A program made the position numbers and the translations under genes. The notes under the pieces are model-generated. The model ran no database searches. It had not been told where the DNA came from and was given only the letters and a program-made list of their open reading frames with translations. DNA of 40,743 bases from Chthoniobacterales bacterium (GTDB taxonomy: Bacteria > Verrucomicrobiota > Verrucomicrobiia > Chthoniobacterales > JACTMZ01): NCBI GenBank assembly GCA_014879535.1, contig JACSRX010000045.1:1-40743 (forward strand). Direction: 5' to 3'. Shown one piece after another: positions 17,076 to 34,077 of the stretch (positions are counted from its first letter, which is position 1; every line of letters begins with the position of its first letter).

Positions 17076-17147
<72 letters not shown>

Positions 17148-17468: not shown

Positions 17469-17597
17469 TCACTCCTTGACCATGGGCGCAATGGCCTCGA
17501 ACCGCTTGGGGCCTATGCCGGGCACGCGCTGCAAGTCCTCCACCTTGCCGTAGGGCCGTCTGTCGATGATTGCGACAGCAGCCCGATGCCCGGCAGC
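17469..17597 (-). pseudogene. ComEA-like helix-hairpin-helix remnant with frameshift
   Basis: The minus strand ends in R-P-Y-G-K-V-E-D-L-Q-R-V-P-G-I-G-P-K-R-F-E followed by a stop at 17469, a close match to the C-terminal helix-hairpin-helix of ComEA DNA-receptor proteins. The first hairpin motif L-P-G-I-G is encoded just upstream (17596-17582) but in another frame. Restoring one base in the C run at 17582-17584 joins L-P-G-I-G to A-A-V-A-I-I-D-R-R-P-Y-G. No recognisable N-terminus or signal peptide is seen further upstream, so the gene is probably a fragment. Full ComEA proteins take up DNA during transformation; this piece is unlikely to work. Confidence 0.5.
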
Positions 17598-17807
17598 GTG
17601 TCTTGCGAGGACGACCCCGACCACCTCGAACCATTCCTTGGCCGCTGCTTCGCCTGCGGTGCCGTTTGGTGCACCGAGTGCGGGCACGTGTTGGACGCAA
17701 ACGAGAAAACCTGTCCGCGCATGGCCGAGCACGATGAAGAGCTTGAGCGAATGATGGAAGAGGGCGACTTGGACCAGCCGCCCGACTCGCTGCCTGAAAA
17801 GCGGTAA
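17586..17807 (+). CDS. Possible small zinc-ribbon protein
   Basis: A 73-residue frame starting at the ATG at 17586. It contains C-F-A-C-G-A-V-W-C-T-E-C-G-H, a CxxC-x4-CxxC arrangement that could hold zinc, plus two further cysteines, and a very acidic tail (E-H-D-E-E-L-E-R-M-M-E-E-G-D). These features are unlikely by chance, but the ORF overlaps the ComEA-like remnant on the other strand and no Shine-Dalgarno is obvious. It may be the end of a larger decayed gene. No function is proposed. Confidence 0.35.
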   Translation: MPGSVSCEDDPDHLEPFLGRCFACGAVWCTECGHVLDANEKTCPRMAEHDEELERMMEEGDLDQPPDSLPEKR

Positions 17808-17879
17808 TGTGCGGGCCGCGGCGATCTATGACACAAAGCAGCCTTGGCGACTCGACACGATCTGGGCAACCTCCCCGCC

Positions 17880-18113
17880 ATGCAGCGGATCGTCCCGCTC
17901 TACGCCAACAAGCACTACGGCCCGGACCACCACATCTGGCACAACAACGGCACGTGGTGAGTCCACTTCAGCGTGACGCGACGCCGCGGCCGGGCGAAGC
18001 GCATCCGGCTGTCCCTCGAGACCAAGAGCAAGGCCGAGGCCAGAGGGCGGAGGGATCAGATCATGCGGGCGCGGCTGGAGCGGGTGGAGGGGATTCGGGC
18101 GGGGTGGTCTTGA
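17880..18113 (+). pseudogene. Integrase-arm-like small gene with in-frame TGA
   Basis: From the ATG at 17880 the frame encodes an N-terminal piece ending H-N-N-G-T-W, then TGA (17958-17960), then continues in the same frame with V-H-F-S-V-T-R-R-R-G and K-R-I-R-L-S-L-E-T-K-S-K-A-E-A-R to a second stop at 18111. The whole reads like the N-terminal DNA-binding part of a tyrosine recombinase or a related small mobilome protein, in which N-G-T-W-W-V is expected; the TGA replaces a Trp codon TGG by one base. The rest of an integrase does not follow. Likely a dead remnant of the element that inserted at the tRNA. Confidence 0.5.
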
Positions 18114-18149
18114 TGTAGGGCAAGTCGTCCGCGGGGAAAGTCGCCGGAC

Positions 18150-18971
18150 CTACAAGCGCAACAAAGCTTCCCGAATAGAACTGCGCCACGTTCCGTCGTC
18201 CCGATGAAACACGCGAGTGATCTCCACCCAGTGAAAGTGGATAAGCTCATACTTCGTCATTCGCGACAAGTGCTGCCAGTCGCCTGCCAAAACGTAAGCC
18301 GCATTGCCGTAATCGCAGCTTTCAAGCAGAACATGGGTAGTGTTCGGATATTCAAATGCAGCATAGCGCTCAAAATCCCCCGCCACCCCGACATAGATGC
18401 CGGAGGCGCCGAGTTCTTGCGCGTGCATCAGCCGCTCTGGCTGCTGGTGGCAACGAGCGTTCTGCGGGATCAACCTGCTCCATCCCATAGCATCGGTCGG
18501 CCACTCACCGGAAGGAAGCAACGTCCAAACTAAACGTTTCACAAGAGGCCATTGCCCCGAGCATTGCAGGAGTTCTTTTTTGCGCCCCTCGGCGATGCGC
18601 CACTTGGTGATATACTCGGCATCATTGGTCGGAGCCTCGGCTTCCCAGAGCGCTTTACGCTCAAGATACTCGGACAGCAACTGCTGGTGTTGTCGGTATT
18701 TCAGGCCATACCCCCCCGCCCATCGTGGCTTGTCCTTGTGAGTCAATTCAGGAAGCGGGGGCGGAGCTTCTGGAAACTGTCTGACCTTGGCGAATAGGAC
18801 GTCAATCAGTGCGGCCCACTGGCCAACCTCCTCGTTTGAAAGTGCCCGTGCCCCAAGCTGGTCGTGAAAATCACGAAGGTGGGCCGAGAGACGGGCGAAC
18901 GGCCAGTTCTGCACCTCCTCAGCGGATGGCAACGACATCTCGCACCCTCCAGCCGGCGGTTCTGGCTTCAT
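18150..18971 (-). CDS. Unrecognised protein, last gene of the defence cluster
   Basis: 273 residues from the ATG at 18971, which lies four bases after the DUF499 gene stop; a second in-frame ATG at 18938 is also possible. I do not recognise the N-terminal two thirds, which are rich in Trp and charged residues and probably mostly helical. The C-terminal 80 residues (G-N-A-A-Y-V-L-A-G-D-W-Q-H-L-S-R-M-T-K-Y-E-L, then a strand ending in F-H-R-D-D-G-T-W) resemble a short module I associate with proteins of mobile elements, but I cannot name it. No membrane segment or nuclease motif is evident. Its tight spacing makes it a candidate accessory subunit of the methylase-helicase-ATPase system. Confidence 0.75.
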   Translation of the reverse strand: MKPEPPAGGCEMSLPSAEEVQNWPFARLSAHLRDFHDQLGARALSNEEVGQWAALIDVLFAKVRQFPEAPPPLPELTHKDKPRWAGGYGLKYRQHQQLLSEYLERKALWEAEAPTNDAEYITKWRIAEGRKKELLQCSGQWPLVKRLVWTLLPSGEWPTDAMGWSRLIPQNARCHQQPERLMHAQELGASGIYVGVAGDFERYAAFEYPNTTHVLLESCDYGNAAYVLAGDWQHLSRMTKYELIHFHWVEITRVFHRDDGTWRSSIREALLRL

Positions 18972-18975
18972 CGGA

Positions 18976-21792
18976 CTATTTCTCGCTGCGGAAGGAATCC
19001 ACATCCAGCCCCAGTTCGCGCAGGGCGGACTTGGTTTCGTCCGCCCGCTCCTTGGAGATTCCTGCTTCGGGATTGGCGTCGAAGGTGACTCTCAGGGTGA
19101 GAGAATTGTCGGTGGCGTATTTGGAGAGCACCTTGGTGTAGAAGTTCATCCACTTCTGCGGAGGGACTGATCCCGTCCAAGTCAGCTTCTTGAAAAAGTC
19201 GGCTTGGCCCGCTGAGCCCTTGTCATCAGGGGCGATAGAGGGGTCCGTTGGTTTAGCCTCTGTGGTGGTTATCGTCGTGGTTGTGGTCTTTCCGGTCTCT
19301 TGGGTCGGCTGGACGGTTCCACTGGCGGCCGCGACTACGGCGTTGCGGTAGCCCTCGGCAGCCTCTCTTTTGAGGATGACGAAGTCCTCGGAGATTTCCA
19401 CGTCGAGTGAACTGAGCGGGGTCTCGAAGATGAACGGCTCGTAGTGGCCGTCGCCGCGCTTTCCGGCGTAGGCGATCTGGCCATTGGTGACACCACGGGC
19501 GACTGTCTCCTTGATCTCCTCAGGGAAGAGAAGGCGGGGCAACTGGGGCGAGGCAAAGAAGGCGTCGCGCACGCTCTTGAGGCTCCATTCGGGCAGGGCC
19601 GGCGGCCAGTTGCGGACCAGGAAGTTCGGGCTGATCCCCTTCTCGATGTCTCCGTCCTGCTGCAACCGGGCGAGGGCCAGATCGACCGGGCTGCCTGCAC
19701 TAGAGGTCACAAGCCCGAGATCCACGACTTTGAGCGTGTTGTCTTTGCCGAGGAGGACGAGAAACTTGTAGGCGCGCCAGATCGATTCGCGCAGGTCGCG
19801 GTGGGCGCGCTTGGCATTCTCGTTGAGCTGACGGAGTTGGGATTCGTCGTAGTTCAGTTGGTCGGACTCGATCTTGATGTCCTCCCAGGCGAGATACTTG
19901 GTCGCCTCCTCGCGCATGATCCGGGCGGAGTCGGCAACCATCCAGATTTGCGCGCTCTTGAACGTGCGGTTTGAGCTGCCGCTCTCGCGGATGACGCCTT
20001 CAATCAGCGCCATGGTTTCTTTCTCGGTCTCCATGTTCTGGTGGTAGTCAGCGACGACCACGGTCAACGCCGGACGATCCGAGACCTGAATGGACTTCTC
20101 GGGGAAAAATATCGGTGAAATCTTGAGTGAGTTCTTCCCGAAGAGAGTCTGAATCTCGCGCCTGATGCACTCTGACGCGGCTGCCGGCTGGATTGTTGCC
20201 CGCCGGTCGGAGAAGCGTTTGTTGAGGTTCTCGCGCAGGCTGAAGCGATAAGCCGCCCGTTCGACATTGAGGTAGTAGCAAGTGGTGGTAAGTCCATCGA
20301 GGGCGGTCTCGACATTGCCGATGTCCAGCGAGGGCTCGCCCACGGCCAGCCGGATTTCGGGGACGGTGGACTCGTGCTTCTCCTTGCCTTGACCGCCGTT
20401 GGACTCGAAGAAAATGGTCGTGGCCACCTTGCGGTGAAGTCGGCCCTTGCGGATTTCGTCGGTGCCCTCCTTATCGAGCCTCACAGCGTGCGCGTTGATG
20501 CTGCCGGCGATATCGGTCGTGACGGCCACTTCAAGATTCCGCTCGCCGAGTTGCTCGAAGCAGGCGGAGCGGAATGTGCTGTCCTGCAGGGGAGCGCTGC
20601 CGAGGGTGATGAGCATATCGCTCAGTCCGCCCTCGTTCCCCTCCTTGTAGGCCTGTGACACCCACAGTGCGAGGAGGCGTAGAATCCCCCGAGTCTGCTG
20701 AAACTTCGGCACGCTCCGCCACTTCCGCTCGAAAACCGAGAGGACTGATGGGTGGAACGGGTAACAATCACGAAACGCCTTCCGTGCATCGTCCACGGAG
20801 AACCATCCGGGGATTTGCTGGCGATGATCGACGGTCCATTGGGCAAACTCGTCGCATGTCTTGGTGGCATCCTTGTCCAAGAGAACCTTGCCGTCGGCAT
20901 TGACCGCGCTCAGATCCCACTCGAACAGCCTTCGCCGAATGATCTCCGAGGTCTCGGCTTCGGCGGACATCATCAGCGCCTTGCCAAGCCGATCCAGGAG
21001 CTTGGTGATGCGGTCGTAGTCCTGCTGATCCTCTGCGTTCATCTCCAATTCAGACGCGGGAATAGATACCGCCAGAACCGCAGAAGACTTTGCCCTCACT
21101 GCCTCCGTGAGATTTTGCAGGAAGTTGTAGAACTGCGCCGCCAGCCCGTTCTTCCGGTTCCTGCTGATGTAGTTCATCAGCTCGTCCATGAGAATCAGGC
21201 ACGGCGTGTCGGGGAGGACCTTGGCCAGCACATCGCCTCCCGGCGACACCGCCTTCGCATCATGCTCCGCCACGAGGGCAAATGCCATCTCTCCGCCAAG
21301 CTGCCAGGCCATCTCGCCCCACGGGGTCTTGCGGAGCGGTGTGCCGTCGTTGCCACCCCGCCCGGTGATCGAGTCGAACTCCGTGCCCACAAAAACGGAT
21401 GCATTGCCGAGCGGAACATCCCGCTGCCCGGCCTTGGCGAGAATCTGTGAGACGCCCGCCCAGTTCTTCCCTGCCGGACCGTGCTTGACGAGGTGGTAGA
21501 GCAGCGTGAGCGCATGGGTCTTTCCGCCGCCAAACTGCGTCGCGAGGTTGAAGATCGATGAGGTCTCGGTTGTAACGCCGTTGAGTCGCCGCACCACCTG
21601 CGACGACAGCTCCAGCATGTTTTTGGTTAGAAAGGTGCGCGCGAAGAACTGCTCGGGTTTCGTGTAAACGTCCGGCGCGTCACCATCACGCACCTTGTCC
21701 AGATGCACGGCGAACTCCGCGGCATCGAGTGGTTTTCCTTCGCGGAGGTCTTCTCGGGGAGTTACGACGTGGCGCCACGGACGGAGTTTCAT
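18976..21792 (-). CDS. DUF499 family AAA ATPase
   Basis: A 938-residue predicted ATPase. The Walker A motif is Q-F-G-G-G-K-T-H at residues 86-93 and Walker B is C-L-I-L-M-D-E at 198-204, both at family positions. The fold is AAA+-like with a long C-terminal region. A threonine-rich linker (about residues 827-840) separates the last ~100 residues, which form an extra domain. DUF499 ATPases are regularly encoded beside DUF1156 methylases and SNF2 helicases in bacteria and archaea and are thought to belong to restriction-like defence complexes. The gene starts seven bases after the Fic stop, so they are co-transcribed. DNA- or partner-dependent ATP hydrolysis is inferred, not shown. Confidence 0.88.
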   Translation of the reverse strand: MKLRPWRHVVTPREDLREGKPLDAAEFAVHLDKVRDGDAPDVYTKPEQFFARTFLTKNMLELSSQVVRRLNGVTTETSSIFNLATQFGGGKTHALTLLYHLVKHGPAGKNWAGVSQILAKAGQRDVPLGNASVFVGTEFDSITGRGGNDGTPLRKTPWGEMAWQLGGEMAFALVAEHDAKAVSPGGDVLAKVLPDTPCLILMDELMNYISRNRKNGLAAQFYNFLQNLTEAVRAKSSAVLAVSIPASELEMNAEDQQDYDRITKLLDRLGKALMMSAEAETSEIIRRRLFEWDLSAVNADGKVLLDKDATKTCDEFAQWTVDHRQQIPGWFSVDDARKAFRDCYPFHPSVLSVFERKWRSVPKFQQTRGILRLLALWVSQAYKEGNEGGLSDMLITLGSAPLQDSTFRSACFEQLGERNLEVAVTTDIAGSINAHAVRLDKEGTDEIRKGRLHRKVATTIFFESNGGQGKEKHESTVPEIRLAVGEPSLDIGNVETALDGLTTTCYYLNVERAAYRFSLRENLNKRFSDRRATIQPAAASECIRREIQTLFGKNSLKISPIFFPEKSIQVSDRPALTVVVADYHQNMETEKETMALIEGVIRESGSSNRTFKSAQIWMVADSARIMREEATKYLAWEDIKIESDQLNYDESQLRQLNENAKRAHRDLRESIWRAYKFLVLLGKDNTLKVVDLGLVTSSAGSPVDLALARLQQDGDIEKGISPNFLVRNWPPALPEWSLKSVRDAFFASPQLPRLLFPEEIKETVARGVTNGQIAYAGKRGDGHYEPFIFETPLSSLDVEISEDFVILKREAAEGYRNAVVAAASGTVQPTQETGKTTTTTITTTEAKPTDPSIAPDDKGSAGQADFFKKLTWTGSVPPQKWMNFYTKVLSKYATDNSLTLRVTFDANPEAGISKERADETKSALRELGLDVDSFRSEK

Positions 21793-21799
21793 AGTTGGG

Positions 21800-23116
21800 T
21801 CAGCGTTTGAGTTTATCGGCCAAGTCCGGCACGGCGCTGAAAATCATCGCCTTCCCCCGCTTGGTCTTGAGGAGCAGGTTGTTCTGGGTCAGTTCAAGGA
21901 GGTCGCGCCGGGCCGTGTCGTAGGCCGTGTTGTGGCTGCGCTGGTGCCCCTCGATCGTGTAGGTTGTCCCGGGGTGCCGCATGGCATGGCTGAGCACCGC
22001 CACCTGCCGGTGGTTGAACTGGCTCCAACTCCGCAAGATCTGCTGACTCTCTTCCAGTTCCTTGGTCTTGCGGTCGATGTAGGCGTGAAGGTGCAGGATG
22101 GCCCGCCGGATCACGTCGGCCTGATGCACCAGGAAATACGTCGCATCGTTGTCATCCGTCTCGGTGTGCAGGAACGCCCTGTAATACTTCGCCGGAGCCC
22201 GGCGCAGGATGTCGGAGATCGAGACGAACTCGAACAGCCAGTATTTCGCGTGGAGCATCGCCCAGTAAAACAACGCCCGCGCCGTCCGACCGTTCCCGTC
22301 CACAAACGGATGGTCATACGCCAGCCAGAAATGCAGCAGCATGGCGCGCACCGCCGGGTGAATGAAGAAACCCGGCGACTCCCCGTTGGCGAAGGCGCAC
22401 ATCATCTCCATGCGCCCCGGCAACTCCTCCGCCTTCGGCGGATGGTGGAAAATGTCGCCGTCTTCATTCTCCACGGTCACCAACTCGTCGGGACGACGCA
22501 GCCGCCCGCCCGCATCCGGCTTGTCCAGCGTCCCGTCCGTGACCTTCCGGTGGATGTGAAAAATCATCTCCGGCGTGAGCGACTGGTCGCGGAGATCGAT
22601 GATCTCCCGCATCGTCAAAAAGTTGTTCAGGATCATCCGCTCGCTCTTGTCGCGCGGGGAGCGTCCGGTCCGGATCATTTCCTTGGCCACCTCCCGCGTC
22701 GTGACCGCCCCCTCAAGCTGGCTCGACGTGATCGCCTCGCGCATCAGGGAACTCACCAAGTATTGGTCGCGGGTTTGCGGGTTCGTCACCGGGGCCGGCA
22801 TCCCTATCTTGCCGCCCGTTCCCATGTCGATCTCGTGCAACTGCTGGGCTACCACATCGGGAACGTGAAATTGGAAGGGCTGCCCCTTCTTGTCCTTCAA
22901 CGGTATCGGCTTCGCATTGCGCCAGCGCCCGATCTTCATCGAGGCCCACCACTCCGGATGCGTGAGCCCCTGCGGCGGCTCCCGATGCCTCACCTCGTCC
23001 CAATGCCAATATTCCTCGACCCCCGGCTCCGTGAGAACACGCTCCAGCTTCTCCAAGAGGTTCGGCTCGCTCAGAATCAGCCCCTTGATGTCCGGCGGTG
23101 TCTGGGGCATTTTCAT
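21800..23116 (-). CDS. Fic family protein (probable AMP transferase)
   Basis: A 438-residue Fic-domain protein. The catalytic motif H-P-F-V-D-G-N-G-R-T-A-R (269-280) is complete, including the His that activates the target hydroxyl. An inhibitory motif S-S-Q-L-E-G (131-136) lies N-terminal, as in class II Fic proteins, where its Glu blocks ATP binding until released. The C-terminus (about 370-438) looks like a winged helix, a common partner in Fic proteins that control their own promoter. The probable reaction is AMP transfer to Ser, Thr or Tyr of a partner protein; the target is unknown. It sits between the methylase and DUF499 genes, with 109 bp of operator-like sequence upstream. Confidence 0.92.
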   Translation of the reverse strand: MKMPQTPPDIKGLILSEPNLLEKLERVLTEPGVEEYWHWDEVRHREPPQGLTHPEWWASMKIGRWRNAKPIPLKDKKGQPFQFHVPDVVAQQLHEIDMGTGGKIGMPAPVTNPQTRDQYLVSSLMREAITSSQLEGAVTTREVAKEMIRTGRSPRDKSERMILNNFLTMREIIDLRDQSLTPEMIFHIHRKVTDGTLDKPDAGGRLRRPDELVTVENEDGDIFHHPPKAEELPGRMEMMCAFANGESPGFFIHPAVRAMLLHFWLAYDHPFVDGNGRTARALFYWAMLHAKYWLFEFVSISDILRRAPAKYYRAFLHTETDDNDATYFLVHQADVIRRAILHLHAYIDRKTKELEESQQILRSWSQFNHRQVAVLSHAMRHPGTTYTIEGHQRSHNTAYDTARRDLLELTQNNLLLKTKRGKAMIFSAVPDLADKLKR

Positions 23117-23131
23117 GGGCTACAAATTTTC

Positions 23132-23201
23132 TACCAATCGAGCAGAAAACGGTATTTTCGAAGCCCCGCCCCGTCAATTACCAATTCGTTATATTTTGGT
23201 A
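23132..23201 (-). promoter_or_regulatory. Operator-like repeats upstream of the Fic gene
   Basis: In an AT-rich 109-bp gap, the plus strand holds TACCAA at 23132-23137 and 23179-23184 and its complement TTGGTA at 23196-23201. The last two form an inverted repeat with an 11-base spacer that covers a TATAAC-like -10 box on the minus strand. This looks like an autoregulated internal promoter for the Fic-DUF499 pair; the bound protein could be the Fic winged helix or the response regulator (inference). Confidence 0.5.
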
Positions 23202-23225
23202 GGAAATCGGTAGTTGCCGCAACCA

Positions 23226-26200
23226 TCACAGCCCCAGTCCTTTCTTCCGCGCCAGCACGCCATCCACCCAGCGTTTTTCGGAGGTGCCGGTGGGATAAAG
23301 GGCACTTAAGGCTTGGGCCAGCTTCCAGAAGCCGGCTTCTTGGCCGACTCCGTCATCAACCAGAAAACGGCGCAAGGCTTCGCCTCGGCCAGTGGCGAAA
23401 AGGATCATCGCTTGGTGGACGCGGTCGAGAATGGTCTCGCCACGCTTGGTCACGGTCTTTTCCTCCCAAGCCTGCTCGGCCACGCCGGGTTCGGTGAGTT
23501 CGGCGAAAAGGTCGAGTTGTTGCTTGGCCTTCTTGCGCTTGGCGGGTTCGGGGGCAGCGGCTTGGTCCTTGCCGAAAAGGTAGGCCGTCCGTTCAGAGAC
23601 GGGTAGCAGGCGGGCTTGATCGCCCTTGATCTCGACGAGGGACTTCAAATCTTCCAAATGCGCCCCGAGTCCTTGGGCGATCTTGCGCGCGGCGTCGAAT
23701 TCGAGCGTGAAACCCTTCGGGGGATTCTTACCCCCGCTCTTGCTGCCTTCGTCGTCCTCATCCTCGTCATCCCCGTCTTCCTTCATCACTCCTTCCTCAT
23801 CCTTCCCTGCGGACAGCGTCCAGAGCCACATGGCCGTGAGCCGGGCATCGGGCTCGAAGCCTTCGACGCTGGCGCCGCTGAAGACGAGCGAGAGGGCTTC
23901 GCGGGCAACGGCGGCCCAGACTTGCTCGAGATATTCGCGAAGGGGGACGGCGTCGCCGCTGGCTTTTTCGACGCGGGAGTAGCGGGAGAAGATTTCGAGC
24001 GCGGGGCCGAGGCAGGCGAAGATGGCGTCGGCACCGACGACGCCTTCCTCGGCGAGGCGGGGCATCCATTCGTGGAGCCGCCGGGGCAGTTCGGCGAGCA
24101 CGTCGCGCCAATCGCCCACTTCGTCCGTGCGCACCGTGCCGTCGGCGGCTTCGCGCGGGCGGACGACGAGGTGGACGGAGGAAGCGAGTCGCGCTTGGCC
24201 TTGCGCCGAAACTCGAGTTTCCATCTCCGTATCAATCGGCCATGAACCGGTGATGACCCATCCCGCCTCAACGACCGCGCGAAGAATCGCCTCCCAACTC
24301 GCTGTGCTCTTGCTCGCGAAAACGATTGTTCCAATTCCCTGCGGGTGAACCACGCGGCGGCCTTCACCGAATGCTCTTTGAAGTTCGCGTTCGTAGAAGG
24401 CGATGTCGTGTGTGGAGTTGCTGAGTTCGTGCATCCGGTCCACCACAATTTCCTCATCCTTGGGGACGGCGTCTCGGGAGAACAACTCCGGGTGAATACC
24501 AGAGAGATTTCGGCGTAACCAAACGTAGAAAAAGTCCGAGAGATATGAATACGGAACAGCGTCGTAGTATGGCGGATCAGTAACGAGCGCGTCAGCGGAA
24601 TCATCTGGCAGCGGATGTCGAGTTGCCGATGCCTGTTGCGGCGACGCACTGCGCCAATCCGAACCGATAGCTTCGAGAATCCCAGCCATTCGGTCTGTCA
24701 GAATGCTCCACGAGCCGCTGGATTCGCCGGAGGGCACCCCCTCGGCGAAATCCCATGTAAACGGAACGGCTTGTCTGCTGAACAAATGCCGTGGGCACTC
24801 TGCAACCGGTTCCCACGGGCAGAGCGAGGTAGCCAAGTCCGCCAGCTTGCTAACGTTCAAGGCAAGGCAGGTTGCCACCGCACATCCAAACTCAGGGTCG
24901 CTTCCGACTCTGCCAGCAACGTCATGCACGAATTTTGAAATCGCGGAGAGCGCCAAGTTCTGACGGGAACTAAACAAGGTGTCCCACGTCTCCAAGCCGT
25001 AAATCATTCCCCAAGTGTGCCGGATTCCACGAATATCGAGCGGCTCATTTGGCACGATGCTGAATGCGCCCTTGTGCGCGGCTTTTCTTTTCTCCAATTC
25101 CTCGCGCCCAGCACTTACAGCGGCGAGGTCGGTATCGGTCGGCAGCCGATAGAAGCGTCCGCCTTCTCCCGCTCGCGTGGAGGCGATGCACATGAGCCGC
25201 GCGTCGTCCGCGCCGCCACGCCGCTCTTTCAACTGAACCCGAACACGGGCGACGGGCGTGGTGTAGCCACAGCACGGGCAGGTGGCGGAGCCTCGGCGCA
25301 CGGTGCCGTCGAAGCCGGGGCTGGCAACATTGGTCTTGCGGTCGTCCTGGGCGACCCAGCCGCCGGGCGTTTTCACGAGGATGCGGAAGTCGCAGCGCTG
25401 GTGCTCGGGCCGCGGGAGAAGCTGAAGGGCGACGGAGCGGCTGGCCTTTTTTGCCAGCCAGAGGGAGCGCACGAGCGGCACCTCGGCGCCGCAGCCGGGG
25501 CCTTCGCAGCGGATGGTGCGCGCCCAGAGGTAGGCGATGGGCGTGGAGCCGTCGTCGCCGCGCGGGTAGAATCGGGCGAGTTCCTTTTCGGCCTCGGCCT
25601 TCACCCACGCGCCCCACTCGCGCACGGCTTCGGCGAGGCGCGCGCCGTGGCGCGGGAGGTATTCGAGGACGACTTTGTTGAGGAGGACGGCGACGGGATT
25701 CAGGTCGCTGGCAAAGGCGTCGGCACCGATGCGGAGGGCTTCGAGCGGGATGGAGCCGCCTCCGGCAAAGGGGTCCACGACCAGCGGCTTCGCTGCAGTT
25801 GAGAGTTGTGCGTTGAGAGTTGAGAGTTTTTCAGACCACTCGCGCTCGTCCATCGGCTCGACGAAGCCGGCGTTGCCGGCGTCGGCGGAGAGGCCGTAGT
25901 GCGCGGCGGCGGTCAGGGCGCGCGCGGTGTCGAGGAAGGCGGGGACGGTGGAGTTGTCCCAATTCGCGAAGTCGGCGATGAAATCGAGCAGGGCCGCGCG
26001 GAGCGTGGTGGGATGCTGCGTGAGCGCGAAGGCCGAGGTGTGCTGGCGGACCACATCGAAAGTGCCCGCGCTCCCAGCGCTGATGCGCGCCCTTTCCTCC
26101 CGCGCCCAACGCCACATGCGCTCGGCGGCGATGATCTGAAAGGCGCGCGGGCAGCGTTCATCCACCGGGTCCGGCCACAACGCCGCGCAAAGCACCGCCC

Positions 26201-26345
26201 GGCAAGCCGCCAACGGCCGCCGCGCCCACCAGATATGCAGCGTGGAGATGTGCCCGTGCCGGATGGATTTCTCCCGCCGCGCATGGTCCGAGATGCGGCG
26301 GATGGGAAGGTCCACCTCGATGAGGCGCTTGGGCAGAGGCTTCAT
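23226..26345 (-). CDS. DUF1156 domain DNA methylase (adenine-specific type, with Zn ribbon)
   Basis: A 1039-residue protein. The DUF1156 start is clear (K-R-L-I-E-V-D-L-P-I, then H-I-W-W-A-R-R-P-L-A-A-C-R-A at 37-50). SAM motif I is D-P-F-A-G-G-G (191-197), zinc-ribbon cysteines are C280/C285 and C356/C358/C359, and the catalytic motif IV is D-P-P-Y (590-593). These are marks of COG1743-type N6-adenine methylases. An acidic linker (about 855-868) precedes a C-terminal helical region. It overlaps the helicase gene by four bases (ATGA), so both are translated together. It probably marks host DNA, and the helicase and ATPases act on unmarked DNA; this is inferred from related restriction-like systems. 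Confidence 0.93.
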   Translation of the reverse strand: MKPLPKRLIEVDLPIRRISDHARREKSIRHGHISTLHIWWARRPLAACRAVLCAALWPDPVDERCPRAFQIIAAERMWRWAREERARISAGSAGTFDVVRQHTSAFALTQHPTTLRAALLDFIADFANWDNSTVPAFLDTARALTAAAHYGLSADAGNAGFVEPMDEREWSEKLSTLNAQLSTAAKPLVVDPFAGGGSIPLEALRIGADAFASDLNPVAVLLNKVVLEYLPRHGARLAEAVREWGAWVKAEAEKELARFYPRGDDGSTPIAYLWARTIRCEGPGCGAEVPLVRSLWLAKKASRSVALQLLPRPEHQRCDFRILVKTPGGWVAQDDRKTNVASPGFDGTVRRGSATCPCCGYTTPVARVRVQLKERRGGADDARLMCIASTRAGEGGRFYRLPTDTDLAAVSAGREELEKRKAAHKGAFSIVPNEPLDIRGIRHTWGMIYGLETWDTLFSSRQNLALSAISKFVHDVAGRVGSDPEFGCAVATCLALNVSKLADLATSLCPWEPVAECPRHLFSRQAVPFTWDFAEGVPSGESSGSWSILTDRMAGILEAIGSDWRSASPQQASATRHPLPDDSADALVTDPPYYDAVPYSYLSDFFYVWLRRNLSGIHPELFSRDAVPKDEEIVVDRMHELSNSTHDIAFYERELQRAFGEGRRVVHPQGIGTIVFASKSTASWEAILRAVVEAGWVITGSWPIDTEMETRVSAQGQARLASSVHLVVRPREAADGTVRTDEVGDWRDVLAELPRRLHEWMPRLAEEGVVGADAIFACLGPALEIFSRYSRVEKASGDAVPLREYLEQVWAAVAREALSLVFSGASVEGFEPDARLTAMWLWTLSAGKDEEGVMKEDGDDEDEDDEGSKSGGKNPPKGFTLEFDAARKIAQGLGAHLEDLKSLVEIKGDQARLLPVSERTAYLFGKDQAAAPEPAKRKKAKQQLDLFAELTEPGVAEQAWEEKTVTKRGETILDRVHQAMILFATGRGEALRRFLVDDGVGQEAGFWKLAQALSALYPTGTSEKRWVDGVLARKKGLGL
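25797..25824 (+). repeat. Four 7-bp tandem units inside the methylase gene
   Basis: Plus-strand units AGTTGAG, AGTTGTG, CGTTGAG, AGTTGAG lie in line, with a partial fifth. They encode L-S-T-L-N-A-Q-L-S-T just before SAM motif I of the methylase. Because the unit is seven bases long, each copy is read in a shifted frame. Confidence 0.7.
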
Positions 26346-29300
26346 GACTGTGTCGATCCGTAGGCGACTCCCTCGTCATGAATGCGCGGAGTGCGCTGAT
26401 CCTCCATCTTGAGTCGGTAGTGCTCGATTTTCACGATGGGTTGCCAGGGGAGTCGGGCTGGATCGCGGAGGATATTGAGCGTGGGGTTGGGTGTGGCGCA
26501 GTGGAAGACGATGTAGAGCCAGTAATCCTGCTTGAGCCGCTCGGCCGTCTTGAATTCGTTGGCTGTGAGGGCCACTTCCCCCCTGTCGGCACGGCCCTTG
26601 ACTTCCACGAACCTCACGCATGGCGCCGCGTTTGGCTCAGCCGAAGCCGGTTTGCGGGCAACAAGGTCGAAGCCACGATTGTCCGCCTCAACGCTCTCCA
26701 CGGTGAACCCTTCGGATTCGAGTGCCTTGGTGGCGATCTGGACCGCCGTGCGCTCGACTTCTTCATCCCGGCGCATCGCACGGCCTGTGGGCGTGTCACG
26801 GTCAGGGTGCGGCAACACCCAGGCGCGTCCCAAGTGCCGTATGTCCGTGACCGAGCATTGCCGTTGACGGGAAAGCTCGCTGCGGCGGGTTTCCAAGCGC
26901 CGGTGGATTTCCTCGATGCGGTTTTCGGCCTGCTTGATCCGACCTTCGAGGCCAGCTTCCTCCGAACCACTCTCACGCTGGGTGACGAGTTCGGCGAGGG
27001 TGCAATTTTCGCGGTTCAGGATCGTGTTGAGGCTGGTTTCGACATGGCTCTCGACGATGCGCGTTTCGCGTTGGCGCTCTTTGCGGACTTCCTCGAGAAA
27101 GGGATTGAGCCCCCGCTCAAGCAGAATCCATTCGAGCTGATCCTTCGGCGGGAGATGAGATCCATCAGGAACCTCCACCGGGTTCTCGGCTGGAACGATC
27201 TCGTGGAAAATGGTGGGTGGGTGGATGGATACAGTTCCATCCATCTCGGTCTGGACAGCGAAAATGCGGCGGTTCAGGACATTGGCGCAGCCGTCACGGA
27301 TCGTCGCCGTGAACACATCGAGTTGGGCCGGGACTTCGCGATGCAGATCGTAGAAAACCGCTCCGCGCTCCAGAGCCGAGACCGTCTCTGCCTCGATCTC
27401 CGCACGGAGGGACTCGAAGAGCGGATGCCCCGGAGTCACCCATTCGGACGATGCGTCCTTTTTGAGCAGTTCCTTGTCGAAGATGACGTCCAGATACTCA
27501 CTGCCCAAGCGCCCGAACTGCGGTTCTTGCTGCTCGCCGCGTGAGAGCAGTTGCCGGGGAATCCTGCCGACGCGGTAAACATGGGAGCGTCCGCGGCTTT
27601 TGGTGAGCTTGAGCCCCACATGCTCCGACGCTTCGACGAAGAAATCCTCGATGACCTCAGGGACAAGCCTGCGCTCTTTGGCTTCGGCGGTTTTTCCAAT
27701 GATGGCCGAGAGGTTGAGTTCGCGTTTGGCCAGTCCTTCCAAAGTGGAGTTGGTGATCTCCGAGAAGCGGTGGATGTCGATGTTGGTGACGATACGGTCG
27801 AGAATGACCTGCTCAGTCTGGTTGCGCGCATACATGTCGCGCAGCATCCGTTCCAGGAGGTTAGACGGAAAAACGTCGCCCAAGACGTTGAAGATCTTCC
27901 CCGTGCGACCAGGATCGAGGTCGTCCTCGATGGCGGCAATGCGGTCGAAAAGCTTCTGCAGGACGCGACCTTCGGCGGTGTTGGTGGCGACGAAATTGAA
28001 GATTAGACAGTCCTTCTCCTGACCATACCGGTGAATGCGACCCATGCGCTGTTCGAGGCGGACAGGATTCCACGGGATGTCGTAGTTCACCATGAGCCAG
28101 CAGAACTGCAGGTTGATACCTTCGCCTGCGGCCTCGGTGGCGACCATCACCTGACATGACTCCTTGAACTCGCGCTCGGCAAAGATCCGACTCCCCGGCG
28201 TGTCACGGTCACCGATCTTCATGCCGCCGTGGATGGTCGTGAGCGAGAGACCCCATTCGCGCAGCTTGCCGAGCGGGCGGCCATCACGCCCATCGCCCGC
28301 GAGGTAATCGAGCGTGTCCTTGTGCTCGGTGAAGATGAGGAGCTTCATCGACGAGTCGGCAAAGATGCCGTGCTCGGTCAGGAGTTCCTTGAGAGCGGTC
28401 AGTTTCGTCTCGTTGGACTTGGCCTCCAAAATCCGTGCTTGGTCAATGAGCTTGCCCAAGTCTTGCACCTCGGCTCTGAGGATGGCGGGGTCAGGGTCCA
28501 GAACCACCTCCTCCAACTGGTCGATGATGGCCTGCTGCTCTTCCTCGTCCAGATCGTCAAACCCCTCGGGGATACGTCGGTTGATCTGCTCGCGCCTGTA
28601 GCCGTCCGGATCGGCCAGAATAGCCTCACGGCGCGCTTTCATGCGCTCCAAGGTGCGACGGGCTGCGTAAAGGCTGGAAGCGAAGCGGCGCTGCAGCATG
28701 GCCATCGTGAAACCAACCGCACGGGCCTGCGGTGAATTGGCTTCAGCCGCACGAATGGACTGATCCTGCACGAACCGGGTCAGGGCGTCGTAAAAGTCGA
28801 GTTCATCATCCGCGATCTCGAACTTCGCCGTCTTGACGATGCGCTTGGTGAAGAGGGATTTGACGAGATTCGTGTCGGGGTCTGGAAACGAGACGAGCGC
28901 CTCTTTGATTCGCCGCAGGTAAAACGGAGCGTCGCGGTTGACCATCGCCTGCTCCAAGCTGCTCACATCGCCGTAAACGTCACGGTCGAGGAGCTTGAGA
29001 AACAGGGCGAAATTCTCCGGGTCGCCCTTGTGAGGAGTGGCCGTCATCAGCAGGAGATGATCGGTCATGTCCGACAGGTCCTTGCCCAGCTTGTAGGCCA
29101 GCGTTTCGCGGTCGGAACTGTAGGCGCTCATCTTGTGAGCCTCATCCACGATCACGAGATCCCAGCGACTGCGGAGGAGGCTGTCACGGGCATCCTCGAT
29201 GCGGGAGACCCACGAAACCGAGGCGATCACTTGGTCATGCTCCTGCCAAGGATTTGTGCCGTAATTCGCCCGCAGAATGTCCGAGCGAATGACTGTGAAC

Positions 29301-29824
29301 TGCTCGCGGAATTTGTCCTTCATCTCGCGCTGCCACTGAAAGGTGAGGTTGGCAGGAGTGACGATGAGGACGCGTTTGATCAGGCCACGAGCCTTGAGTT
29401 CCTTGATCAACAGCCCCGCCATGATCGTCTTGCCTGCACCGGGATCGTCAGCCAGCAGAAAGCGAATCCGTGGCATCTTGAGGAAGTAGTCATAGACCGC
29501 TTCGAGTTGGTGGGGCAGCGGATCAACGCGAGCTATCGAGAGGGAGAAATACGGGTCGTATTCGTATGCCAAGCCAAGGCGCATGGCCTCGATACCAAGG
29601 CGGAATTTGCGGGCATCACCATCAAAGGGCTCCCTCTGAGGATTGACCTCCAGAAGCGCGATCTGCCCGGCATCCAGAATTGGTTGGTAGGTCTGGCCGG
29701 TGTTGACCCCCGTGGCGACGAGCTTCACCGAGGCGCCGTTGGCAATCGTGGTGATGACCTGCACCGGCTCCGGGAACAACGGTCCCCGAACGATGCTGTT
29801 GGGGAGGAGTTGATCAGCCGTCAT
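26342..29824 (-). CDS. SNF2-type helicase with C-terminal DUF3883 domain
   Basis: A 1160-residue SF2 ATPase of the SNF2/HepA group. Visible are the Q-motif region P-L-P-H-Q (Q106), Walker A D-D-P-G-A-G-K-T (126-133), DEAH (227-230), T-A-T-P-H-K-G (motif III) and motif VI Q-R-M-G-R-I-H-R-Y-G-Q. A charged coiled-coil-like stretch is near 925-960. The last ~110 residues are a DUF3883 domain with G-F-D (1051-1053) and E-V-K-G-R (1074-1078), a pattern shared with PD-(D/E)xK nucleases, so DNA cleavage or binding is possible. It is the first gene of the methylase unit and probably translocates on DNA. A 209-bp gap separates it from the response regulator gene. Confidence 0.93.
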   Translation of the reverse strand: MTADQLLPNSIVRGPLFPEPVQVITTIANGASVKLVATGVNTGQTYQPILDAGQIALLEVNPQREPFDGDARKFRLGIEAMRLGLAYEYDPYFSLSIARVDPLPHQLEAVYDYFLKMPRIRFLLADDPGAGKTIMAGLLIKELKARGLIKRVLIVTPANLTFQWQREMKDKFREQFTVIRSDILRANYGTNPWQEHDQVIASVSWVSRIEDARDSLLRSRWDLVIVDEAHKMSAYSSDRETLAYKLGKDLSDMTDHLLLMTATPHKGDPENFALFLKLLDRDVYGDVSSLEQAMVNRDAPFYLRRIKEALVSFPDPDTNLVKSLFTKRIVKTAKFEIADDELDFYDALTRFVQDQSIRAAEANSPQARAVGFTMAMLQRRFASSLYAARRTLERMKARREAILADPDGYRREQINRRIPEGFDDLDEEEQQAIIDQLEEVVLDPDPAILRAEVQDLGKLIDQARILEAKSNETKLTALKELLTEHGIFADSSMKLLIFTEHKDTLDYLAGDGRDGRPLGKLREWGLSLTTIHGGMKIGDRDTPGSRIFAEREFKESCQVMVATEAAGEGINLQFCWLMVNYDIPWNPVRLEQRMGRIHRYGQEKDCLIFNFVATNTAEGRVLQKLFDRIAAIEDDLDPGRTGKIFNVLGDVFPSNLLERMLRDMYARNQTEQVILDRIVTNIDIHRFSEITNSTLEGLAKRELNLSAIIGKTAEAKERRLVPEVIEDFFVEASEHVGLKLTKSRGRSHVYRVGRIPRQLLSRGEQQEPQFGRLGSEYLDVIFDKELLKKDASSEWVTPGHPLFESLRAEIEAETVSALERGAVFYDLHREVPAQLDVFTATIRDGCANVLNRRIFAVQTEMDGTVSIHPPTIFHEIVPAENPVEVPDGSHLPPKDQLEWILLERGLNPFLEEVRKERQRETRIVESHVETSLNTILNRENCTLAELVTQRESGSEEAGLEGRIKQAENRIEEIHRRLETRRSELSRQRQCSVTDIRHLGRAWVLPHPDRDTPTGRAMRRDEEVERTAVQIATKALESEGFTVESVEADNRGFDLVARKPASAEPNAAPCVRFVEVKGRADRGEVALTANEFKTAERLKQDYWLYIVFHCATPNPTLNILRDPARLPWQPIVKIEHYRLKMEDQRTPRIHDEGVAYGSTQS

Positions 29825-29922
29825 CTGCGATGGTCAGGGTCGAGCAGGGTTAATTCTCGGCTTTCAGGCTAAGCTGATGCCATCCAAAACTGTGCATCCA
29901 TTCGTGTAAGCCTGCCCTATTT

Positions 29923-29950
29923 CTTGCTGCCGAAGCTTTGGAGCAGCAAG
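29923..29950. promoter_or_regulatory. Inverted repeat between response regulator and helicase genes
   Basis: CTTGCTGC (29923-29930) and GCAGCAAG (29943-29950) form a perfect 8-bp inverted repeat with a 12-base spacer, in the 209-bp gap upstream of the helicase start. No T run follows on either strand, so an operator is more likely than a terminator. The neighbouring response regulator is a natural candidate binder; that is inference. Confidence 0.45.
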
Positions 29951-30033
29951 CACTGGCCTTCATTCTGGCACAAGAATCTACGGAGGCCGGGGGAGTTTGG
30001 AATCTCTGTTTGTGTCATAAAGGAGATTTCTGT

Positions 30034-31065
30034 TTATCGCCCACTCTTGAGCCGGTAGTGACCGGAGCCCTTCGGTCCAGTGAACTCTATCCTGTCGCCA
30101 AGAGCCATGAGGTCTCGTTTGGCGGTGGCGATGGATACCTTGAACTCGTCCTCGATGTCCTTGCGCCTCACTTTTTTCCGAGCCCGGAGCTGAGCAAGGA
30201 CCCATGCTTGTCGGTCGTCGGTGGTGGGCTCCAAGGACTCCTCCTCAGTCGTCGGGCCGCGCTGGTCGGAGAGGTCTTCGACTTGGAGGTCCTGGTTGAG
30301 CTGGTAGCCGGTGCGACCGGTGACCACAACCGAGTCCTCATCCGCATCAATCCCGCTTGCCTTCAGCGTCTCGACGAGCCTACGCCGGAAGGGGCTGAGC
30401 GCATCGCATATCGCGTTCTGGCCCCGCTCAAGGTCCAGCATGTCCGCCAAGGCCTTGCCGGCAAATGCCCGCGGCCTCCCGTCAGGTCGGCGTTCCTTCA
30501 GGATGTTGAGCATCCTCCACATCGTGCCGCTCGCCGGCGTGCAGATGAGCAAGCCCTCAAGCTCCACGCTCTCCTTGTAGAAAACCAGCCTTCCCCGCGC
30601 GAGTGGACGGCGGTCTTTGGACTCGGGCGGATCATCCACCGGATCGCGCGAGCCCCGGCGACCAACCTGAACGCGGCCGGCCAGGGCCTCTGCGATAGCG
30701 CTCTCCAGGGTCTCGAACGGCTTCTTTACGAAGTCGGTCGCTCCCGCCTTCATGACATCCACGGCCAGGTCGGGGCGGTCGTGCCCGTGCGCGGTCACAA
30801 CAATCACTGGAGTGTCGGCGTGGCGCTCACTCGCCCGAATCTCCTGCAGGAGGTTCTTGCCGGTTTGAATGAGCGGTGTGCGGCCGTAGCGGACGGGCAG
30901 TTCCAGGTCGAGGAGCACGTAGGAGTAGCCACAGCGGGCCATCCGCTCCCGGGCATCGGTCTGGCACGCCACGTTGTGTTGGTCGTGGCCGAGCGATTCC
31001 AGCCGATCCACGAGCGAGGCCCGGATCTCTGGATCATCCTCGATGATGAGAGCCAACGGCTTCAT
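30034..31065 (-). CDS. Response regulator with winged-helix and DeoR-like DNA-binding regions
   Basis: 343 residues. The receiver domain (1-130) has D10/D11, phospho-acceptor D53 in V-L-L-D-L-E-L-P, T91 and K115, so it should be active; a short insert follows D53. The middle part (about 150-270) ends in V-V-V-T-G-R-T-G-Y-Q-L-N, which resembles the wing of an OmpR-type winged helix. The C-terminus (about 285-343, with V-R-R-K-D-I-E-D-E-F-K-V-S-I-A-T-A-K-R-D-L) is a DeoR-like helix-turn-helix. Two possible DNA-binding regions in one regulator is uncommon. Its start overlaps the kinase stop by four bases, making it the kinase's partner. Likely targets are the operators in this cluster. Confidence 0.88.
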   Translation of the reverse strand: MKPLALIIEDDPEIRASLVDRLESLGHDQHNVACQTDARERMARCGYSYVLLDLELPVRYGRTPLIQTGKNLLQEIRASERHADTPVIVVTAHGHDRPDLAVDVMKAGATDFVKKPFETLESAIAEALAGRVQVGRRGSRDPVDDPPESKDRRPLARGRLVFYKESVELEGLLICTPASGTMWRMLNILKERRPDGRPRAFAGKALADMLDLERGQNAICDALSPFRRRLVETLKASGIDADEDSVVVTGRTGYQLNQDLQVEDLSDQRGPTTEEESLEPTTDDRQAWVLAQLRARKKVRRKDIEDEFKVSIATAKRDLMALGDRIEFTGPKGSGHYRLKSGR

Positions 31066-32201
31066 TCCTCCGCCTTTCCGGCGACGGGCAACAGAACAGT
31101 AACCGTCGTGCCCTGATCGACTTGACTCGTGATCGTCAGAGTCCCGCCGTGCGCCTCAAGCGTGCGATGGGCAATCGGCAGACCGAAGCCGGTTCCGAGG
31201 TAGCTTTTGGAAGTGCGCCCCGGAATGAAGCGCCTCACCTCCTCCAATTCGGCCGGGGCCATGCCCATACCATTGTCCTCGATCACGATTCTGACAGCGT
31301 CTGCCTGACCATCCGCCGTGACTTGCACGCGCCCCGGCTGGAACTCAGTTTCGTTGATGCTGAACGCCTCGTGGGCGTTCTTGAGCAGATTGCGTAGGGC
31401 CAATACCAGATGCATTCGCGAGGCGGAAACGCACAGGTCCTCCGAGACGGAGAAGAACACAGAAACAGCCTCGGCGTTACGCGCTGTGGCCTTGAACTCA
31501 TCCCGCACCATCGAGAGAGCGTCGTTGAGCATCGGTCCCACGCGCTCGGTCGCCCGTTCCCTCGACGGAACCTGCGTGTAGTAGCGCATGTCGTTGAGGA
31601 GCCGGTCCAGGAACGAAACCTGCCGGGATAAGCGACGCGCCGCCTTTTTGACGTTCGGATCGGCGGCTTCCCCCGGGGATGCTTCGAGCGACTCCACCGT
31701 GGCCTTCATGGCCGTGACGATGCTCCTCATTTCGTGGACGCTTGCCCCGACCAAACCCTCGTAAAGTCGGTGAGCCATTTCACGTATCGTGCGGGACGCT
31801 TTGGCCCCATGTCGTATTTCGATCTGTCTGATGTCAGCCTCGATGCGGCTCAGGCCCCGCACTCTCTTGGTGTCCATTGCCCGCCCCTTTCGCCGCCTCA
31901 CCAAGGACTGCTCAACGGCCGACTTCACATAGGCGTTCACGTCCCCGGACAACAGGCCCGCGAACACTCCAAAGTCCGAATCCGAGAGTTTATGGAGATG
32001 GTCGGCTACCTGCTTCCTGACCTCCCACTTCGGGTCGGCAGCCAGCAACCGGAGGAGCTCGGCCGAGACGGCGGGCAAGGGTCGCGTCCTCACCACCCCG
32101 CCGAGCAGCTCGCCAGCCACACGCACCCTTTCCGGCCACGGGATCGACTCCGGATCGGCCCGCAGTTCGGCAAGCTTGGATTCTATCGCCTCCGAACGCA
32201 T
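31062..32201 (-). CDS. Soluble histidine kinase with N-terminal HEAT-like repeats
   Basis: 379 residues from the ATG at 32201, one base after the stop of the upstream ATPase gene. Residues about 24-104 look like HEAT repeats (A-A-D-P-K-W-E-V-R-K-Q-V-A-D-H-L). The phospho-accepting histidine is probably H156 in A-S-V-H-E-M-R. The ATPase part has the N box N-L-L-K-N-A-H-E-A-F (271-280), G1 D-N-G-M-G-M (309-314) and G2 G-T-G-F-G-L (336-341). There is no membrane segment and no PAS or GAF domain, so the signal must be cytoplasmic; the HEAT repeats probably bind a protein or DNA. It overlaps the response regulator gene by four bases. The upstream ATPase is the likely sensor partner. Confidence 0.9.
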   Translation of the reverse strand: MRSEAIESKLAELRADPESIPWPERVRVAGELLGGVVRTRPLPAVSAELLRLLAADPKWEVRKQVADHLHKLSDSDFGVFAGLLSGDVNAYVKSAVEQSLVRRRKGRAMDTKRVRGLSRIEADIRQIEIRHGAKASRTIREMAHRLYEGLVGASVHEMRSIVTAMKATVESLEASPGEAADPNVKKAARRLSRQVSFLDRLLNDMRYYTQVPSRERATERVGPMLNDALSMVRDEFKATARNAEAVSVFFSVSEDLCVSASRMHLVLALRNLLKNAHEAFSINETEFQPGRVQVTADGQADAVRIVIEDNGMGMAPAELEEVRRFIPGRTSKSYLGTGFGLPIAHRTLEAHGGTLTITSQVDQGTTVTVLLPVAGKAEE

Positions 32202-32202
32202 T

Positions 32203-34077
32203 TCAGGCCTTGTAGCGTTCCACGCGCCGCCGGAAGGCCTCCTTGCCGCCCTCAAGCAGGGTCACGATCTGCTCCTTGCACTCGTCCACCGACCCGGTCC
32301 AAGCCGTTCGGGCGCGCTCGCCATCGGATTCCATCACAAACACGCGGGACGCATCGCCCAGCACGGGGATGTTCGGATTGTGGGTGACAAAGATGAGCTG
32401 CCTTGAGCGCTTCACCTTCAGGATGCTATCGACCACGGTCTCGAAGATGAAGCGGTTATCGAGGTTGTCCTCCGGCTGATCGATAAGCAGAGGGTTGCCC
32501 CCCTCAAGGAGCAGGATCGGCAACACCGTCGTGCATTTCTGTCCGGTGGAGAGCGCCGAAGAGTCCTTCTGCGACTCGCCAACCCTGAGCTTGATACTCG
32601 GCGCATCCTGCAATTCCACGGTTTCGAGTTCGGCGAGCTTCTCTGGCGAGTTGAACGCAGCCACCACTTCGGCGGCTTGATCGGAATTCAAACCCCCGCG
32701 GTCCATCAGTGCGGCCGGGTCGCCTCCACGCACGAGGTCCGCGAGTTGCTGCGGCGGAAGAGAGCGTGTCAGCTTCTTGGCGACGATGCTGCGCCGAATT
32801 GTCGATCCGCGCAGGGATGCGTCGATCAGCTCGCCGTAGGCGTCGGCCGCACCATCCTGATCGATGACAACCGTGATCATCGGCGCCAGTGCAGCGTTGA
32901 GCCGCTCGGCCACCTCCTTGCGGATCTGAAAGCGCCGGTCTCGAACCTCGGAAAGCTGGGTCAGGAGTTGCAGGCGGCTCTTCTCCGCCACCTTGATCCG
33001 CTTGTTGATCTCAGCCGCCTCCGCTCGGCACTCCAGCACATCGTTGCGTTTGCGCTCAAGGGAAGCCCTCTCTGCCGATTGAGCCTGATGCTGCTTGTGT
33101 TTATCGATCAGTTTCCGGAAGGCAATCTCCTGCTCGTGGTGCGCGACCGTGATCTGGCGACCACTCTCCACCACAACTTCGACGCAACCCTCGACGGCCA
33201 CCTGCGCCGCGTTGAGCCCCTGCTCAACGGCCTTCGCGCACTTGCGGAGACTGTCACTCACCTCGTTCATGAGCTGGCCGTTCGGCCCCTCCACCATCTC
33301 GCGGGTCACCTTGCCAGAGAGTTCGGCGCGGTAGCGGTCCCTGACTTCCGCCAATTCTTGCCCGTAGCGTGTGAGCCAATCGGCCACACTCGAGACAACG
33401 CGCCCCTCCCTATCCCGGAGCGCCTTGGCGGCATGAGCCCGATTTACTGCCTCAGCGATCTTGTCATCGGCTCCGCCAAAGGCCTTTAGCTTCTCCTCGA
33501 TCATCGGCAACTGCTTGATCTTTTCGTTCAGCGCAGCACTGCGCTCGACCAAGGGCGCAAGCTGCTTGGCCTGCGTCACGATTTGCAGCGTGATGTCGGC
33601 CACGGCGCGGTTCATCTCGGCCACCCGGACCGGCTCGAAGCTGTCGATGAGCTCAAGTTGGAACTTTCCATGGTCGGCAATGCTCTCCACCTCGTTCTGA
33701 CTGAAGATGTCGGCGCGGAAGAAAGCATTCTCGTCGAGCGACAGCGCCGTCGCGTTCCTCGATGCGTCAAGCACGATCGGCGCTTCGCCGACCGCTCGCA
33801 CGATGAAGTAGCGCAAGCCATCGCGTGTCTCGACTTCAAGCTCCACTCGCCCACCCTGGAGGTTGCCCTCGACGAGCGAGTCAACCCGCCGGCGGGCAGA
33901 TGGGGAAAGCTCCCTCTTCGGAAGGGCGTCGAGCGCATAACGCACCAATTCAAGCAAGGTCGTCTTGCCCGTGCCGCGCGCACCGATAATGCAATTGAGG
34001 TCTGATGCGAATTTCACTCGGGCTCCGTCCAGAAAGCCCCCAACGATGGCCAGCGAGATGAGTCGGTCGATCTTCAT
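32203..34077 (-). CDS. SMC/TrlF-like AAA ATPase
   Basis: A 624-residue ABC-type ATPase. Walker A is G-A-R-G-T-G-K-T (32-39). A long charged coiled-coil region covers about residues 165-400. The signature L-S-T-G-Q-K starts at 509, Walker B is P-L-L-I-D-Q-P-E-D-N (529-538), and the H-loop is in F-V-T-H-N-P near 563. The T-G-Q-K signature and the D-Q-P-E-D-N-L-D-N block match the ATPase part of TrlF-type defence proteins, but no PHP nuclease domain is fused here. Such ATPases often sense DNA ends or altered DNA and pass a signal to a partner. Here the next gene, one base away, is a histidine kinase, suggesting a sensor-kinase pair. Confidence 0.88.
   Translation of the reverse strand: MKIDRLISLAIVGGFLDGARVKFASDLNCIIGARGTGKTTLLELVRYALDALPKRELSPSARRRVDSLVEGNLQGGRVELEVETRDGLRYFIVRAVGEAPIVLDASRNATALSLDENAFFRADIFSQNEVESIADHGKFQLELIDSFEPVRVAEMNRAVADITLQIVTQAKQLAPLVERSAALNEKIKQLPMIEEKLKAFGGADDKIAEAVNRAHAAKALRDREGRVVSSVADWLTRYGQELAEVRDRYRAELSGKVTREMVEGPNGQLMNEVSDSLRKCAKAVEQGLNAAQVAVEGCVEVVVESGRQITVAHHEQEIAFRKLIDKHKQHQAQSAERASLERKRNDVLECRAEAAEINKRIKVAEKSRLQLLTQLSEVRDRRFQIRKEVAERLNAALAPMITVVIDQDGAADAYGELIDASLRGSTIRRSIVAKKLTRSLPPQQLADLVRGGDPAALMDRGGLNSDQAAEVVAAFNSPEKLAELETVELQDAPSIKLRVGESQKDSSALSTGQKCTTVLPILLLEGGNPLLIDQPEDNLDNRFIFETVVDSILKVKRSRQLIFVTHNPNIPVLGDASRVFVMESDGERARTAWTGSVDECKEQIVTLLEGGKEAFRRRVERYKA

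Follow-up and report, generated by a model that had tools for sequence, protein, structure and literature searches.

Gene content of the locus

The window, by which we mean the whole 40,743-nucleotide stretch that was analysed (JACSRX010000045.1, 1-40,743), carries a row of eight genes that the original prediction had placed on one strand, and all eight are found on the minus strand at the expected coordinates. From upstream to downstream they are:

32203..34077, minus strand: SMC/TrlF-like AAA ATPase without a PHP domain, presumed sensor (624 aa; Pfam AAA_23, 1e-9; NF045780, 294 bits)
31062..32255, minus strand: soluble HEAT-repeat histidine kinase (397 aa as the longest ORF; HATPase_c, 1e-20; HisKA; weak HEAT)
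30034..31065, minus strand: response regulator with a receiver, an OmpR/PhoB-type winged helix and a second, C-terminal winged helix (343 aa; Response_reg, 2e-15)
26342..29824, minus strand: HmaA, SNF2-type helicase with C-terminal NOV_C (DUF3883) (PDLC00659, 611 bits; SNF2-rel_dom, Helicase_C, NOV_C)
23226..26345, minus strand: HmaB, DUF1156 adenine-type DNA methyltransferase (PDLC00661, 414 bits; N-terminal DUF1156, 6e-21; DPPY motif)
21800..23116, minus strand: Fic protein with HPFVDGNGR and an N-terminal SSQLEG (Pfam Fic, 1e-17; PADLOC SoFic, 132 bits; Fic relatives in the PDB)
18976..21792, minus strand: HmaC, DUF499 ATPase (PDLC00662, 418 bits; DUF499, 9e-21)
18150..19004, minus strand: unknown protein, last of the row (284 aa; overlaps the end of HmaC by 29 bp)

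Neighbouring genes overlap or are separated by short gaps, except between the regulator and HmaA (209 bp) and between HmaB and Fic (109 bp). For the kinase, an ATG at 32201 is a likelier start than the longest-ORF start at 32255. A 144-aa ORF just upstream of the ATPase (34508-34074) is probably not a gene, since it has no family match and overlies a repeat array described below. The last protein of the row has no match in the family libraries searched (Pfam, PADLOC, NCBI families); weak homologues occur in G330 and on C16 of the window's own genome.

The helicase, methylase and ATPase genes had been likened to the Hma defence type, and comparison with PADLOC supports this resemblance, with all three families matched on the same strand and in order by HmaA, HmaB and HmaC. 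Judged by these family matches, the five downstream genes comprise a complete Hma system, a Fic gene set within it and one gene of unknown identity. Hma is already known (PMC8565338) and has been reclassified as 'DUF499-centred BREX-related type 1' (PMC12839542). The window differs by the Fic gene between HmaB and HmaC, and by the upstream trio of ATPase, kinase and regulator, which is not described in the searched passages of either source. With an HxFx(D/E)GNxR active site (HPFVDGNGR) and an inhibitory-type motif (SSQLEG), the Fic protein is a predicted class II Fic adenylyltransferase. No Fic gene was found near any other Hma locus fetched, and the gene looks like local cargo. Close Hma operons (L051, L052, L053, L238) likewise carry differing extra genes between HmaA and HmaB or between HmaB and HmaC, and differ in what surrounds the core genes. 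In a further Hma-type helicase locus (L058, 5427-19899), a regulator-like gene and a gene for a long TrlF-like ATPase of 913 aa are also present.

Divergent from the trio lies a phage replication/recombination module:

34456-35409, plus strand: Sak4-like annealing protein
35406-36410, plus strand: exonuclease
36417-36821, plus strand: SSB-like protein
36802-38337, plus strand: helicase
within 38085-40361, plus strand: primase

The module (34456-40361) was assigned by PHROGs 124, 69, 378, 16 and 2597 and by Pfam AAA_24, DUF2800, DUF669 and ResIII. The window is the whole contig and ends at 40743, before any virion gene comes into view. In G216 (L255, 1590-11235), the divergent place beside the Sak4 module that the trio occupies in the window holds other large genes, among them those for an HmaB-like methylase and a 1234-aa protein, and this slot may be a site of defence gene exchange; searching the PDB with the module's neighbour in that genome returned nothing informative.

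Several features together suggest an integrated element: synteny with congeners reaches about 12.4 kb, HmaC is absent from ten congeners, and a broken integrase-like remnant follows a tRNA-Val. The last of these lies at 17076-18118, where tRNA-Val (gac) precedes a tyrosine integrase-like N-terminal part with an in-frame stop (identified by eye); this is likely the left edge of the element. Looking for another tRNA-Val end that could serve as attR turned up no second att copy. The tRNA-Val at 8949 was considered as the right attachment site and rejected, as it is conserved in congeners with flanking synteny. Empty-site comparison with congeners was uninformative: the gene to the left of the tRNA is missing there.

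The ATPase-kinase-regulator trio and its neighbours

The window's ATPase matches the TrlF family model NF045780 from column 291 on, so that it lacks the N-terminal PHP part, and its score (294 bits) falls below the cut-off of 350; on both grounds we do not assign it to TrlF. It shares the SMC-like ATPase and a C-terminal signature with the TrlF and Ppl AAA-like ATPases (NF045780, NF042955), and differs from them in having no PHP nuclease domain, in standing beside a separate kinase and regulator, and in scoring below the family cut-offs. Across 63 trio homologues, the residues of its Walker A, ABC-type signature and Walker B motifs show little or no variation. The kinase conserves His174, Asn293 and the G boxes (64 homologues), and Asp10, Asp53 and Lys115 of the regulator are invariant (59 homologues). 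With its H, N and G boxes on one side and the Asp pocket, phospho-acceptor Asp and Lys on the other, the two are predicted to be a functional two-component pair. A structural model of the regulator (pLDDT 83) matches MtrA, RpaA, VanR and KdpE over the receiver and DNA-binding domain, which suggests an OmpR/PhoB-type fold of receiver plus winged helix.

The three genes recur together. Among 289 genomes of the phylum the kinase has four clear relatives (E 1e-35 to 1e-46; next best 1e-19), all of which sit in the same ATPase-kinase-regulator order. Scanning 84,980 species genomes with the ATPase alignment yielded 51 loci, 39 with ATPase and kinase, and in 37/39 of these the regulator follows; IMG/VR added 29 contigs with ATPase and kinase. 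Almost everywhere, adjacent genes of the trio overlap or lie a few bases apart. Dozens of loci show these three genes in one fixed order, so their adjacency is no accident. The trio is very probably a conserved unit, and the claim that ATPase, kinase and regulator form a real, dedicated module is upheld by fixed gene order and catalytic residues kept across about 60 loci. The kinase has no PADLOC match, the ATPase has no close PHROG, and no family in the searched libraries names the trio. No description of it was found in a full-text literature search, most subscription papers lying outside the reach of that search, and a search on phage-encoded two-component switches and PHP-SMC proteins gave nothing useful. 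On its gene content and distribution, the trio appears to be a module that is widespread but had no label until now, and that both phages and many unrelated defence systems carry.

Its partners are exchangeable, and include HNH and BrxL/BrxC/PglZ-like genes as well as the following, which are either immediate neighbours or stand in one row with it:

L067: BREX genes, with BrxL 27 bp from the trio
L068, L069, L071, L082, L083, L088, L116: type III restriction beside the trio
L064: DrmD-like helicase and type IIG enzyme beside the trio
L060: C3a139-type helicase and AAA_12/RNase H-like protein beside the trio
L080: TmtA beside the trio
L077: GajB-like helicase beside the trio
L089: SMODS nucleotidyltransferase (CBASS-like) beside the trio
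L122, L124, L085: DUF1156/DUF499/helicase sets near the trio

Some of these labels come from a small home-made protein set and a longest-ORF rule, so that spurious ORFs figure among the listed neighbours; for the key partners, PADLOC or Pfam served as a check. In a 65-member ATPase tree, defence context requires 10 changes for 11 rows and has therefore been entered many times. Non-self defence neighbours occur at 7/39 trio loci and at 0/40 control loci (P = 0.005 Fisher's exact test), in a rough comparison that uses a small proxy set and samples of differing host range. Here controls were 40 other kinase loci of the phylum, and a locus's own proteins were left out of the reference set. The trio may thus be a general switch for phages and defence systems rather than a special part of the window's Hma.

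Lentisphaera-type genomes and phages (L047, L049, L050, L079, L081, L087, L090, L138) share a conserved cassette in which the trio is flanked by a divergently oriented WYL regulator gene on one side and, downstream, by a gene for a DnaQ-type exonuclease, and the WYL-type trios form almost one group on the ATPase tree. This arrangement recalls the BrxR and WYL-family defence regulators (PMC9122601), whose genes, like the trio, co-localize with many defence types; those regulators are single proteins, whereas the trio is a three-protein phosphorelay.

Sister versions differ in their outputs. A divergent, plasmid-borne trio (ATPase 27% identical) ends in a receiver joined to an APH-type kinase and has no DNA-binding domain; its hosts are conjugative plasmids of Klebsiella, Leclercia and Phaeobacter and plasmids of Caballeronia and Rhodococcus. 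Such ATPase, kinase and receiver-APH kinase sets (L248, 7971-12116; L251, L252, L253, L254) are possibly an unnamed defence or plasmid-maintenance system; a PDB search with the APH-like output was uninformative. At L102 (9983-13838; also L100 and L103), an ATPase of the same family is followed by a protein of ~657 aa and by no kinase or regulator; in L102 this protein has an APH-like HGDxHxxN motif, read from the sequence. Taken with the PHP-fused TrlF and Ppl, these versions suggest one sensor ATPase with exchangeable outputs.

Detocs is a defensive two-component system of a kinase (DtcA), a regulator (DtcB) and an effector with a nucleosidase-type domain (DtcC). The trio resembles it in combining kinase and regulator in a defence setting, and the plasmid sister version has its receiver fused to an enzyme domain; the window's trio differs in its sensor (SMC-like ATPase and HEAT kinase) and in its OmpR/PhoB-type DNA-binding output. 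We rejected an assignment to Detocs, given that the kinase has no PADLOC match and the locus has no nucleosidase-type effector. In Marinomonas, the two-component system PpoS/PpoR sets CRISPR-Cas expression and phage sensitivity (PMC8523701), and so controls defence gene expression much as we consider for the trio. Unlike the trio, PpoS/PpoR is a global BarA/UvrY-type system outside any mobile cassette, with no ATPase partner described in the abstract. Two-component control of defence is thus already known in kind, from PpoS/PpoR and from Detocs.

Repeat arrays upstream of the trio

A repeat array lies in the divergent promoter region that separates the trio from the phage module:

34165..34375, minus strand: six GGCATCAY repeats, candidate operator of the regulator (211 bp; spacings 11, 21, 80, 11 and 80 bp)

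GGCATCAY occurs 12 times in the whole window against 3.4 expected, and the spaced pair GGYRTCAY-N3-GGYRTCAY (11 bp) has two occurrences in the 3.17-Mb genome, both within the array. In L060-L063 a related form, CCGGTRTCA, makes up an array in the corresponding position (L064 has a pair), both where the divergent gene is Sak4-like and where it is another one. Could the array instead belong to the Sak4 phage module? No array was found in 24 loci with a Sak4-like gene but no trio, and that assignment was rejected: the repeats go with the trio rather than with the phage genes. Other phage trios (L127, L125) have different repeats in the same phase. Repeats at a lag of 11 are present in 10/25 phage or divergent regions vs 1/21 others, and no comparable array was found at defence-associated trios.

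PhoB/OmpR-type regulators bind direct repeats about one helical turn apart. Given the 11-bp phasing, a distribution bound to the trio and the OmpR/PhoB-type fold of the modelled regulator, the array is likely the regulator's target; position, spacing and conservation all point to a putative operator. That the trio controls its own promoter is accordingly a claim we would make with reasonable, if not strong, confidence from these sequence features.

Possible control of Hma, phage induction or defence

The original prediction combined the two halves of the row into a sensor-controlled Hma variant that switches on its effectors. In its dedicated form, the trio would be the sensor-regulator of the window's Hma, arming the genes for helicase, methylase, Fic and ATPase when infection occurs. 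The trio and Hma share a strand and lie 209 bp apart, and because no terminator was found between the regulator and HmaA, co-transcription is possible. Elsewhere, trios stand in apparent operons with type III restriction-modification or BREX (gaps 0-78 bp), and the expected recurrence of the kinase-regulator trio with a methylase set was in part recovered, near the DUF1156/DUF499/helicase genes of L122, L124 and L085. These loci, and the many other defence systems near trios, also mean that the two modules do co-occur outside the window. The four closest Hma loci (L051, L052, L053, L238; HmaA 63-66% identical) have no trio, which rules it out as a constant component of Hma. Trios mostly lack Hma, with an Hma-like neighbour in the window and a few loci among 60-odd trios, and such occasional adjacency is expected because both belong to the mobile defence gene pool. 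In L124 and L085, moreover, the Hma-like genes run on the opposite strand. It is the trio, not HmaA, that has the candidate operator array upstream, and the gap before HmaA has a single copy of the motif and no spaced pair. With no recognizable promoter or terminator in that gap, only read-through control of HmaA remains; an alignment of HmaA upstream regions revealed no conserved promoter. We therefore regard any control of Hma by the trio as unlikely and a dedicated Hma sensor as more improbable still.

Two other explanations set Hma aside. The trio could be the lysogeny or induction control unit of a phage family, its internal sensor feeding a two-component relay that stands in the usual place of the repressor and switches the divergent replication operon. 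It is directly divergent from a Sak4-exonuclease-SSB-helicase-primase module in the window and in L060, L063, L113, L120 and L127, with helically phased arrays in between whose motifs differ by lineage, and portal or capsid genes share the trio locus in L047, L114, L134, L135 and L138. Chthoniobacter flavus Ellin428 carries its trio on a prophage (L063/L111). However, many trios sit in defence operons with no phage gene seen (L067, L068, L071, L082, L088), the Sak4 module is often present without a trio, and the slot in L255 seems to hold another defence-like gene set; we consider this role doubtful. We are similarly sceptical that the trio is a stand-alone anti-phage system, an infection-triggered relay resembling Detocs that merely clusters in islands and prophages. 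Such a system would fit the plasmid relatives, which are three-gene units ending in a receiver-APH kinase with no other partner, the ATPase relatives that include a family named anti-phage protein Ppl by NCBI, and the DnaQ exonuclease added to Lentisphaera-type trios. The window-type regulator, by contrast, ends in DNA-binding domains and not in an enzyme, which leaves the trio without an effector unless a neighbouring gene under its regulation plays that part.

On balance we favour, with somewhat better than even confidence, an independent phosphorelay cassette that controls the divergent promoter of its own genes and has Hma next to it as cargo, the two stacked in a phage-derived integrative element. 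In such a cassette, the cytoplasmic SMC/TrlF-type ATPase would sense an intracellular cue, perhaps a phage product or DNA that is foreign or broken, and would act on the soluble HEAT-repeat histidine kinase, the direction of signalling being presumed. The kinase would phosphorylate the OmpR/PhoB-type regulator at Asp53, and the regulator would then bind the helically phased GGYRTCAY repeats located where the promoters of the cassette and of the phage module diverge. Binding to the array would place the cassette's own operon, and probably the phage replication module too, under its control, and the downstream Hma operon with its Fic cargo could be reached by read-through.

More tentatively, the trio may represent a widespread, unnamed sensor family built on an SMC/TrlF-type ATPase. 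The ATPase would report an event inside the cell, namely damaged or foreign DNA, by way of a soluble kinase, and the output would be exchangeable: on plasmids an APH-type kinase, in phages and defence islands a regulator that binds DNA. The phage version would switch the replication module, and the version in defence islands would set restriction, BREX or Hma-like expression. If so, one module would serve both sides, phage and defence. What turns on costly defence systems and prophages from within the cell is a largely open question. A compact, mobile ATPase-kinase-regulator relay that travels with phages, restriction, BREX and plasmids, together with a short candidate operator, would make that question directly testable, and would tie a known anti-phage ATPase family to gene regulation.
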